From Methylobacterium sp. WL1 (GTDB lineage Bacteria; Pseudomonadota; Alphaproteobacteria; Rhizobiales; Beijerinckiaceae): a DNA stretch of 64,000 nt. Below are positions 32,229 to 34,932 of the stretch, in pieces; the stretch's first letter is position 1, and each line of letters starts with the position of its first letter. Location of the stretch: positions 1,240,001-1,304,000 of the forward strand of contig NZ_CP042823.1 of the NCBI RefSeq assembly GCF_008000895.1, written 5' to 3'. A program made the position numbers and the translations under genes. The notes under the pieces were generated by a model, which was not told the origin of the DNA, ran no database searches, and worked only from the letters and a program-made list of their open reading frames with translations.

Positions 32229-33421
32229 TCACGCGGCGGCGGCTCCCACGGAATCGGCCATCTGGGCGCGTCGCGTGCCCAGGGGCTGCGGCTCACCCAC
32301 GGTGGTGTCCTCGGCGGTCTGATGCTCCATCTCGGCGTTCAGCTGGGCACCGGCGAGCACGATCATGGTCGAGATCCAGATCCAGGTCATGAAGCCGATG
32401 GCCGCGCCGAGGGAGCCGTAGGTCTTGTTGTAGCTGCCGAAATGGGCGACGTACCAGGAGAACAGCAGCGACGCGACGAGCCACAGCAGGGCCGCCGCGG
32501 CGCCCCCGGGGGTGACCCAGCGCCAGCGCGGCGCGTCCCGGCTCGGACCGTAGCGGTAGAGCAGGGCGAGCCCGAGCAGGACTGCCACGAGCAGCGCCGG
32601 CCAGCGCAGCAGGGTCAGCCACCAGGCATCGGTCCCGAGCCCGACATAGGTCAGCACCACCGGCAGCACCACGACCGCGGCCAGAGCCAGGATCAGGAAC
32701 GCCAGCGCCCCCGCGGTGAAGCCGAGGGAGACGACGTTGAGCAGGACGAAATTGCGCTTCTCGCGCTCGTTGTAGACGATGTTGAGGGCGTCGAAGACGT
32801 GCTTCACGCCGCCGTTGGCGCTCCAGACCGACAGGACGATGCTGACGACCAGGCTCAGGCCCAGCGCGGTGTTGCCCTTCTCGTTCAGGCGCTTGACTTG
32901 GTCGCCGATGATCTCAAGGGCGCCCTGGGGCAGGACGCCCTGAAGGCTGGCGAGTTGGTCGTTGATGGTCGAGGCGTCGGCCACGAGGCCGTAGCAGGAG
33001 ACCAGCGCGGCGACGGCCGGGAAGATCGCCAGCAGGGTGAAGAAGGTGACGCCGGCCGCGATCAGCGACAGGCGGTTCTCGCCGATGTCCCGGTAGGTGC
33101 GCAGCGCGATGTCCTTCCAGCCCTTGGCGGGAATTTCGGCCGGATGGCTGGCGCCCCGCCCGCGATCGGCCTGGCGGCTCGCGACCGCCGGGCCTCGCCG
33201 CCCTCGTGCGCGGGCGCGGGTTCCGAGGAGCCCGCGAAGGCGGACCAGCGGCCCGGCTCCGCGCCGGCCGGGGCGGAGGCAGGAGCCGGGGCGGCAGACC
33301 GCCGCGGGAACGCAACCAGGCCGACGAGCGCGGTGGCCAGCGCCAGGGTCCAGACCGTCGAGGCGTGCCCCCCGGTGTCGCGGGGCACGGTGCGATCGGG
33401 ATCGGGGGAAGCCATCGACAC
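32229..33421 (-). CDS. YihY/BrkB-family inner-membrane protein (frameshifted in this sequence)
   Basis: The C-terminal ~310 residues are a clear YihY/BrkB family protein: EIPAKGWKDIALRTYRDIGEN, LIAAGVTFFTLLAIFPAVAAL, NGGVKHVFDALNIVYNEREK, WRWVTPGGAAAALLWLVASLLF and SYNKTYGSLGAAIGFMTWIW. The likely N terminus (MSMASPDPDRTVPRDTG with a hydrophobic WTLALATALVGLVAF helix) is in another frame, from 33421. The frames join if one base is added in the CCCC run at 33154-33157. Function of the family is unresolved despite its old RNase BN label. The C terminus is a ~40-residue soluble tail. Confidence 0.78.
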
Positions 33422-33681
33422 GCCTCGCTACGGGTTCAGGAACCAAGTCCGGTCGGCCTCCGGAAGGAGACGGATCCGACAGGGAACGCCGTTGCGAGCC
33501 CGCCGGTTCGCGGGTCCGTTCGTCTTCGGCCCCGACACCTCGGCCCGTCACGCTTGCTTGTATTGGTTCGTCTCAGTGTCGCGGCAACACGGTCTAAACC
33601 CATGTTGGCGCGAGAGCCGCGTGGGCGCGCCACAAGCGAATGCGACGGGCGCGATAGGCCCGCCGTCGATGCCCGGACCTG

Positions 33682-34443
33682 ATGCCAGACACCGAAGGCC
33701 ACACCCTGCCCGATCCGGCCCGCGACATCCGGCATGGCCTGCCGGACGCGATCCGCATCCACCTCGGGACGCTGCTCGGCCTGACCTACGACGCGGTCGG
33801 CCCGACTCCGGCGGCTGCCTCGGATCGCTTTGCCGACCTGTTGGCGCGCCTGGACGCCGCGCTCGCCAAGGACCAGGCCTCAGAGCCGGTCTCGGGGGAG
33901 GTCGAACGGGAGGCCGACTTCCGCGCCGGCCTGCTGAAGGTGGTGCCGGCCCTACACCGCTTCGCCGTCTCGTTGACCCGAGACCCCGCCGCGGCTGATG
34001 ACCTCGTGCAGGACACGCTGCTGCGGGGCTGGCGCGGACGAGCCGGCTTCACCCCCGGGTCCAACCTGGAGGCTTGGCTTTTCACGATCCTGCGCAACGT
34101 GTTCTACAGCCAGCACCGCAAGCAGGGTCGCGAGGTCGCGGACACCGACGGCAGCTACGCTGAGCGGTTGACCAGCGTGCCGGAGCAGGGCGGCCATCTC
34201 GACCTGCAGGACGTGCGCGCCGCCCTCGACCGGCTCGCCCCGGTGATGCGCGAGGCACTGGTCCTCGTGGCGATCGAGAACCTCAGCTACGAGGAAGCCG
34301 CAGCCGTCATGCAATGTCAGATCGGCACCGTGAAGAGCCGGGTGTGGCGTGCCCGCGAGCAGCTCGCCCGGATGCTGGGCTACACCGGTGCCGAGATCGG
34401 CAACGACGGGGTGATGCTGTCGGTGACCGGGACGTCGGCCTGA
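33682..34443 (+). CDS. EcfG-type RNA polymerase sigma factor with a NepR-like N-terminal extension
   Basis: A 253-residue protein in two parts. Residues ~20-62 (DAIRIHLGTLLGLTYDAV, DRFADLLARLDAAL) resemble the two helices of the anti-sigma factor NepR. From ~75 it is an ECF sigma factor: region 2 with ALHRFAVSLTRDPAAADDLVQDTLLRGW and LEAWLFTILRNVFYSQHRK, region 4 with LDRLAPVMREALVLVAIENLSYEEAAAVMQ and IGTVKSRVWRAREQLARML. The sigma part matches EcfG general-stress sigma factors. A stand-alone nepR lies convergently 204 bp downstream. Whether the extension inhibits its own sigma domain in cis is inference. Confidence 0.83.
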   Translation: MPDTEGHTLPDPARDIRHGLPDAIRIHLGTLLGLTYDAVGPTPAAASDRFADLLARLDAALAKDQASEPVSGEVEREADFRAGLLKVVPALHRFAVSLTRDPAAADDLVQDTLLRGWRGRAGFTPGSNLEAWLFTILRNVFYSQHRKQGREVADTDGSYAERLTSVPEQGGHLDLQDVRAALDRLAPVMREALVLVAIENLSYEEAAAVMQCQIGTVKSRVWRAREQLARMLGYTGAEIGNDGVMLSVTGTSA

Positions 34444-34647
34444 CGCCGCAGCCACGCTCTCCACCGACGAATACCCATCTTCGTCACATCACCCTCTGTA
34501 TTCGACAGAAAATTTGACTTAGGTGAAGGCGCCCGGGGTCGTTCCTGGGCGACATAGGACGGGTTGGGTCGATTCGTCGTCCCGGCTCAGCTCCCGTCGG
34601 TGTGACATCCCCCCGATCCATCGACGGGAGCCCCATCCCGGATCCCC

Positions 34648-34875
34648 TCAGCGTCCGGTCTCGTCCGCGCGATCGGCGTCGAGCTGCTGCAGCAGCTCCG
34701 CCAGCCTCGGATCCAGCACCTCATCGATCACCGGGTCATAGAGCGCGCGCAGCTGGCGCCCCAGGCGCGTCCGCGTCTGCGCATCGAGGACCGGGGCCTC
34801 GCTTGAGACCGGGAAGACCCGCAGGGCTGTGGGGGCGGATCGCGGGGCGGCGTGCTGGTGATCGGGACGTGGCAT
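34648..34875 (-). CDS. nepR: NepR-family anti-sigma factor
   Basis: A ~75-residue protein. After a variable N terminus comes the NepR core TRTRLGRQLRALYDPVIDEV and PRLAELLQQLDAD, the two amphipathic helices that clamp EcfG and are released by PhyR-P. ATG 34875 is preferred because a candidate EcfG promoter (34909-34932) would overlap a start further upstream at GTG 34914. It converges with the sigma factor gene. No phyR is in the window, so this is probably an accessory stress locus of the kind reported as paralogues in Methylobacterium. Confidence 0.8.
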   Translation of the reverse strand: MPRPDHQHAAPRSAPTALRVFPVSSEAPVLDAQTRTRLGRQLRALYDPVIDEVLDPRLAELLQQLDADRADETGR

Positions 34876-34908: not shown

Positions 34909-34932
34909 AACCACACGCCGTTACGAAGTCCC
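34909..34932 (-). promoter_or_regulatory. Candidate EcfG-dependent promoter of nepR
   Basis: On the minus strand GGGAC is followed after 16 bases by GTT, one mismatch from the EcfG consensus GGAAC-N16/17-GTT, 34 bp before the nepR start. Autoregulation of nepR by EcfG is common; this site is an inference. Confidence 0.45.

Follow-up and report, generated by a model that had tools for sequence, protein, structure and literature searches.

An EcfG-type sigma factor of Methylobacterium sp. WL1 with a NepR-derived N-terminal extension and a convergent nepR gene

What becomes of the PhyR-NepR partner switch when a sigma factor carries a module that resembles its own anti-sigma factor, and when a stand-alone nepR gene faces this sigma factor from the opposite strand? 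A locus of Methylobacterium sp. WL1 raises this question. The window, i.e., the whole stretch of DNA analysed, comprises 64,000 nucleotides; the features of the locus are compiled in Table 1. A sequence-only reading had suggested that it may be one of the divergent arrangements of the genus, in which the sigma factor would inhibit itself or titrate PhyR.

Sigma factors of the EcfG/ECF15 class recognize promoters of the type GAAC-N16,17-C/GGTT and are members of the PhyR-NepR partner switch. In the window EcfG the Pfam families PF04542 (Sigma70_r2), PF08281 (Sigma70_r4_2), PF22029 and PF22233 (PhyR_sigma2, PhyR_sigma-like) are found above their cut-offs; a TIP120 match was dismissed, its score being below the cut-off of that family. 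A sequence search of the PDB returned as top match 5uxx_A, which is the EcfG-type RpoE chain in a Bartonella complex with NepR (E 2.9e-47, residues 76-232). The window protein is almost certainly an EcfG with a NepR-derived extension. A search for sigma-70 promoters and terminators between 33300 and 35100 found none.

Table 1. Features of the ecfG-nepR locus; positions are those of the window.
Feature	Position	Strand	Evidence
ecfG paralogue, ECF15/EcfG-type, 253 aa, extended at its N-terminus by a NepR-like module	33682..34443	+	Pfam and PDB sequence match
NepR-like extension, residues 20-62 (helix 1 ~22-39, helix 2 ~43-65)	33739..33867	+	hhalign, profile, AlphaFold
Sigma region 2, residues 88-150	33943..34131	+	Pfam PF04542, E 5.4e-17
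Sigma region 4, residues 176-228	34207..34365	+	Pfam PF08281, E 6.8e-13
Candidate sigma-EcfG-type promoter GGAAC-N17-CGGTT, 199 bp before the ecfG ATG	33483..33508	+	exact motif match
nepR paralogue convergent with ecfG, 75 aa if read from the conserved ATG; alternative start GTG at 34914	34648..34875	-	Pfam NepR, custom profile

Is the extension really related to NepR? The Pfam NepR family (PF18557) scores the window EcfG at 13.2 bits, residues 1-77 at 14.2 bits, and the region at 15 bits in a genome search, all below the gathering cut-off of 25.7 bits. The match spans helix 2 only, residues 48-60. By itself this is no proof of a resemblance to NepR, and because the extension stays under the cut-off we speak of a decayed NepR homologue rather than of a NepR domain. 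A custom NepR profile was assembled from 30 NepR regions, to which other genera within the order contributed 29 and Methylobacterium sp. WL1 one; at least three of the source regions sit inside long open frames. With this profile the window extension attains 18.7 bits, the maximum among 20,000 shuffles of its residues being 11.2, and the printed alignment again takes in helix 2 only (residues 48-66). At least 10 bits are reached by 134 of 137 extensions; of 2,740 shuffles 2,094 were scored, and the highest score among these was 8.1.

Both helices are covered when family is compared with family. A profile of the extension, made from the first 68 rows of the alignment (window EcfG and homologues), was aligned to the NepR profile by hhalign with 98.1% probability and a P of 7.9e-14 over window residues 18-63. 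As controls, 200 column shuffles attained at most 46.8% (P 2e-4), and the reversed profile 0.5%. This bears out the NepR-like helices which had been claimed at residues 20-62; the match of the N-terminal region to NepR is significant at the level of the family. Across the 137 sequences L20, H27, L28, G29, L32, Y36, L53, and L57 are near-invariant, and G29, L32, Y36, L53, and L57 correspond to matched core positions of NepR. The window extension is without the invariant proline which precedes helix 2 in NepR, and its loop is 2 residues longer. An EcfG1-like paralogue of the same layout, C2:1011068, reaches 35.8 bits with Pfam NepR, i.e., it surpasses the cut-off. Taking together the family profile, the core positions, and this paralogue, the resemblance is, on sequence evidence, homology, and of the two extensions that of the window EcfG is by the same comparison the more decayed one. 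If two short amphipathic helices looked alike by chance, this would agree with the single-sequence Pfam score under the cut-off and its restriction to helix 2. Such a coincidence is rejected by the shuffle and profile controls, a P of 7.9e-14 standing against 2e-4 for the best column shuffle and 134 of 137 extensions against the best scored shuffle of 8.1 bits; moreover, the extension was reported independently in 2016 (PMC4814048). We give chance practically no credence.

Sigma factors with a NepR-like extension had already been published. Francez-Charlot et al. (2016; PMC4814048) described a NepR-like extension on the EcfG proteins of Methylobacterium extorquens as a feature of the Methylobacteriaceae, read it as a likely ancient ecfG-nepR fusion, and credited an earlier (2009) paper, their reference 4, with noticing it first. 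With EcfG1-EcfG6 of M. extorquens AM1 the window EcfG shares this N-terminal extension of about 55 residues; it is a member of the published kind, with the extension decayed. Hence, the NepR-like module and the Methylobacterium setting of the sequence-only reading stand, whereas the module is a published family trait and no special arrangement. According to the same paper the extension is absent outside the Methylobacteriaceae, including EcfG2 of C. crescentus and S. melonis, and whether it adds a feature was 'currently not known'. The passages of PMC8999054 and PMC8103513 drawn on here do not mention the Methylobacterium extension.

The biochemistry reported in PMC4814048 frames the question of function. 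In vitro, EcfG1 binds NepR only if truncated, and in two-hybrid assays NepR was bound by truncated EcfG1 and EcfG5 only. In vivo, both EcfG1 isoforms, the full-length protein and one shorter by 14 residues, pull down NepR and both complement. A sextuple ecfG mutant is complemented by ecfG1 as well as by ecfG2, either gene being cloned with 200 bp of upstream sequence. EcfG2, in the same extended set, was termed apparently constitutively active and was argued to remain under PhyR by a route not known to the authors. Two NepR paralogues of M. extorquens bind PhyR, and their binding to any EcfG was not seen; the NepR paralogue META2p0735 appears to damp the stress response.

Is the extension preserved by selection? 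The dN/dS ratios of 14 orthologues, a set which leaves out L108 and L109 (the start motif used is absent from them), in which some rows come from the same species and L105 is identical to L027 in the printed stretch, are 0.10 for the sigma part, 0.37 for helix 1, 0.27 for helix 2, 0.76 for the inter-helix loop, and 0.64 for the linker to sigma2. Over residues 20-62 the ratio is 0.41, a fourfold excess over the sigma part. These values indicate that the helices of the extension are under constraint, far less so than the sigma domains, and such constraint would fit a structural role as a partner in cis better than that of a pure relic.

The AlphaFold2 model of the window EcfG, computed with 137 sequences, has helices at residues 22-39 and 43-65, where NepR has its two; in the model of the EcfG1-like paralogue they are at 29-47 and 53-69. 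Both predictions thus contain the two helices, but neither model shows the closed sigma2-sigma4 clamp of 5UXX, at a pTM of 0.49-0.50. Such pTM values do not fix the relative placement of the domains, and the absence of the clamp therefore does not refute docking; for the NepR-sigma interface asked for by the sequence-only reading the models decide neither way. Foldseek returned 5UXX as top match for both models with a whole-chain rmsd of 16-18 angstrom, and the VIA-align superposition of the window model comprises sigma2 only (80 residues, 1.7 angstrom). Among the matches listed in the fold comparisons no NepR chain lies on the extension, all rows beginning at model residue 40 or later. The sigma part of the Bartonella quintana RpoE-NepR complex is thus the top match both by PDB sequence and by Foldseek; there NepR is a separate chain, whereas in the window EcfG the NepR-like module is fused and may or may not sit in the same place (whole-chain rmsd 16 angstrom, pTM 0.49).

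The convergent gene next to ecfG is most likely a nepR, as had been claimed. As a protein it attains 24.3 bits with Pfam NepR, and 25.8 bits with its neighbours in the genome search (cut-off 25.7); the custom profile finds it with an E of 1.4e-10. Approximately 200 bp separate the two converging genes. The ATG at 34875 and both helices are kept in 9 of 9 named orthologous loci, and because all nine share it this ATG is a better start than the GTG at 34914. The better start is thus the one proposed from the sequence alone.

How general is this linkage? With the custom NepR profile (E <= 0.01) a convergent nepR is detected in 24 of 24 orthologous loci (window, L019-L027, L099-L112); some of these look like same-species pairs and the count does not represent 24 independent events. 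The same search finds an opposite-strand NepR match in 0 of 28 other ecfG loci (L028-L039, L069, L113-L127), of which L069 stops about 140 bp past the match, too short to show a nepR, and L039 is a partial match. The flanks searched extended up to 4 kb for named and up to 1.5 kb for unnamed loci, possibly less at contig ends (L113-L127). The Results and Discussion of PMC4814048 mention no convergent nepR in M. extorquens, in contrast to the window locus. META2p0735 resembles the window nepR insofar as both are extra stand-alone NepR-like proteins in a genome with other nepR genes. META2p0735 has an EcfG-type promoter (PMC4814048), whereas none was found upstream of the window nepR; in its relatives there are only near-matches to a looser pattern.

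The promoter pattern GGAAC-N16/17-SGTT was searched across the 64 kb. It occurs 4 times vs 1.2 expected, and because 4 of 100 shuffles reach the same count the window on its own is weak promoter evidence. Counting the window, the motif is present upstream of ecfG in 23 of 24 orthologous loci. It lies within 400 bp in 14 loci and at a distance of 1,147-1,182 bp in 9 of the other 10; the sole exception is L023, from which an exact copy is absent. The orthologous loci contain no further copies beyond those upstream of ecfG. Two of the nine loci with the distant motif, L022 and L025, were read, and in both an ORF of TGxxxGxG appearance, which we take to be short-chain dehydrogenase-like, is situated between motif and ecfG. 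Its presence in only a part of the clade means that it was gained or lost there. According to PMC4814048, no putative EcfG-type promoter is present upstream of any of the six ecfG genes of M. extorquens; in contrast, the motif is conserved in the orthologous loci described here. Compared with the published work, the convergent nepR linkage and the upstream sigma-EcfG-type motif are the additions made here, and they are modest. As a side observation, the divergent BrkB-family gene (Pfam PF03631) upstream of ecfG is broken into two reading frames at about 33150-33230, and it is one uninterrupted frame in L019, L021, and L099. The split is either a frameshift in the WL1 genome or a sequencing error.

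In a tree of 50 rows the window EcfG belongs to a clade of 22 divergent EcfGs with a support of 100/100. With its deep forks open, the tree is compatible with a single as well as a repeated origin of the fusion. Proteins at least 82% identical to it are found in 15 of 59 genus genomes, WL1 included. It seems unlikely that it is the universal EcfG1. The paralogue C2:1011068 fits better: it has the stronger NepR match, in fact the strongest among the paralogues, is 56% identical to the window EcfG, and is excluded from the 22-row clade; further, other genomes of the genus repeatedly contain matches comparable in identity and span. We infer that the name EcfG1 belongs to C2:1011068. All EcfG matches listed in the 59 genomes at E <= 1e-60, a limit which omits weaker ones, e.g., the unfused ecfG of WL1, start within query residues 1-26 and consequently include the extension.

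The unfused ecfG belongs to a gene pair at C2:5256961-5257649 (-; L003/L012), in which the nepR stop overlaps the start codon region of this extension-less ecfG; an operon arranged in this way could give rise to a nepR-ecfG fusion. A further ecfG-like stretch at C2:2846322-2846885 (L015), 44% identical to the window EcfG, contains two in-frame TGA codons and is probably a decaying paralogue. Some fused EcfGs carry the label 'NepR family anti-sigma factor' in public records (e.g., P0128, P0131). The name is taken from the extension and is misleading for sigma factors.

NepR-like domains are also attached to other proteins of the genus. PF18557 matches the WL1 genome nine times at E <= 10, a permissive threshold that yields matches in 11 of 14 control genomes as well. 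Apart from stand-alone NepRs, of which the one at C2:5749646 scores highest, and EcfG fusions, the nine include two on other proteins. In a protein of 179 aa a NepR-like domain is N-terminal to a receiver (match C2:3504507-3504608; L004/L163), and a hybrid histidine kinase of the order HisKA-HATPase-REC-REC-NepR carries one at its C-terminal end (match C2:892823-892921; L005/L157). As proteins they score 25.4 and 22.4 bits with Pfam NepR, both under the cut-off of 25.7; the custom profile finds both types in 14 loci (six relatives each plus L004 and L005) with E values from 4.5e-8 to 9.2e-7. Among the rows listed, the NepR-receiver protein has query-spanning matches in 51 of 59 genus genomes at an identity of at least 62%, and the kinase with the NepR tail has matches in 42 of 59 at an identity of at least 67%, reaching query residue 150 or beyond, with an in-frame stop in two of the matching rows. 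The kinase could tether PhyR to a kinase. Among the papers listed in the literature searches, titles and abstract openings contain no description of either type, and the word 'receiver' is absent from the main text of PMC4814048. It is possible, though less likely than not, that the NepR fold is in Methylobacterium a general docking module for PhyR and EcfG, fused to EcfG, to a receiver protein, and to a hybrid kinase. The locus would then be a self-contained sub-circuit made up of a NepR-shielded, stress-induced sigma factor and a convergent, PhyR-damping NepR.

How, then, may the locus operate? We propose a masked, stress-induced sigma factor with a linked, PhyR-damping NepR, and assign to this wiring as a whole a probability of about 0.5. 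We take the window EcfG to be a lineage-specific paralogue of the general stress response of Methylobacterium, its N-terminus a decayed NepR module from an old nepR-ecfG fusion, an event presumed here as it was in PMC4814048. To judge from what is published on EcfG1, the surface with which the sigma factor binds NepR is most likely masked by its own two helices folding back over it, and free NepR would bind poorly; the main determinant of output would in that case be how much of the window EcfG is present. Via the sigma-EcfG-type motif ecfG would be a feed-forward target of the stress response, and the convergent NepR, by analogy with META2p0735, most likely dampens this response by binding PhyR. 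Masking is consistent with the homology of the extension, with the NepR binding of truncated M. extorquens EcfG1 and EcfG5 only in two-hybrid assays and of truncated EcfG1 in vitro, and with the apparently constitutive activity of EcfG2 as a member of the extended set (PMC4814048). The wiring agrees with helices which are more constrained than loop and linker, with the motif in 23 of 24 orthologous loci and no further copies there, with a convergent nepR in 24 of 24 vs 0 of 28 loci, and with published NepR paralogues that bind PhyR and were not seen to bind EcfG. The secondary ecfG2 genes of C. crescentus and S. melonis, with transcription controlled by EcfG1 and no regulation via NepR binding (PMC4814048), have the wiring proposed here. 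However, the models place sigma2 and sigma4 unlike 5UXX and lend no structural support to docking in cis, and the window EcfG has lost the helix-2 proline and has a longer loop. Further, NepR was pulled down in vivo with either EcfG1 isoform and either one complements, and a pure shield does not account for an EcfG2 that is argued to be still under PhyR (PMC4814048). With respect to feed-forward control, the motif may originally have belonged to the dehydrogenase-like ORF which in some relatives lies between it and ecfG.

Other readings share part of this evidence. Under true autoinhibition the extension would keep the sigma factor from RNA polymerase in cis until phosphorylated PhyR releases the sigma factor by binding to the extension, a partner switch in one chain. 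That NepR binds both EcfG and PhyR, and that the helices of a NepR-like extension are under selection, would suit this scheme, but ecfG1 and ecfG2 of M. extorquens each complement the sextuple mutant and the reported effect of the extension is to block NepR binding (PMC4814048); the self-inhibition put forward in the sequence-only reading is not borne out by these data. Together with the missing proline and a predicted structure that, at low confidence, is without a clamp, this makes autoinhibition unlikely. Doubtful, too, is the view that the extension is a mere leftover of the fusion, a structural cap or simply tolerated, with no regulatory role: the fourfold higher dN/dS over residues 20-62 points in this direction, as do the sub-threshold Pfam score and the absence of NepR from the precomputed Pfam domains of 120 listed homologues, yet eight positions are near-invariant in 137 sequences, including the G, L, Y, L, L of the NepR core, and every EcfG match listed in the 59 genomes at E <= 1e-60 has retained the extension. 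Finally, extension and convergent NepR might both bind PhyR as a sponge, so that they determine the threshold at which the response starts, whatever the activity of the sigma factor itself. The two M. extorquens paralogues that bind PhyR and were not seen to bind EcfG, and a nepR kept beside ecfG in 24 of 24 loci, are compatible with a sponge; against it, the window extension is of the more decayed kind, and we found nothing in the text of PMC4814048 on whether an EcfG extension binds PhyR. We regard a sponge as quite improbable.

The role of the extension was left open in 2016. A decayed extension, a conserved stress-type promoter motif, and a nepR in permanent linkage come together in the window paralogue, which makes it well suited to testing this role. 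Should masking be true, the fusion removes sigma factors from the partner switch and places them under transcriptional control. This would help to explain how many EcfG paralogues can exist side by side in one genome.
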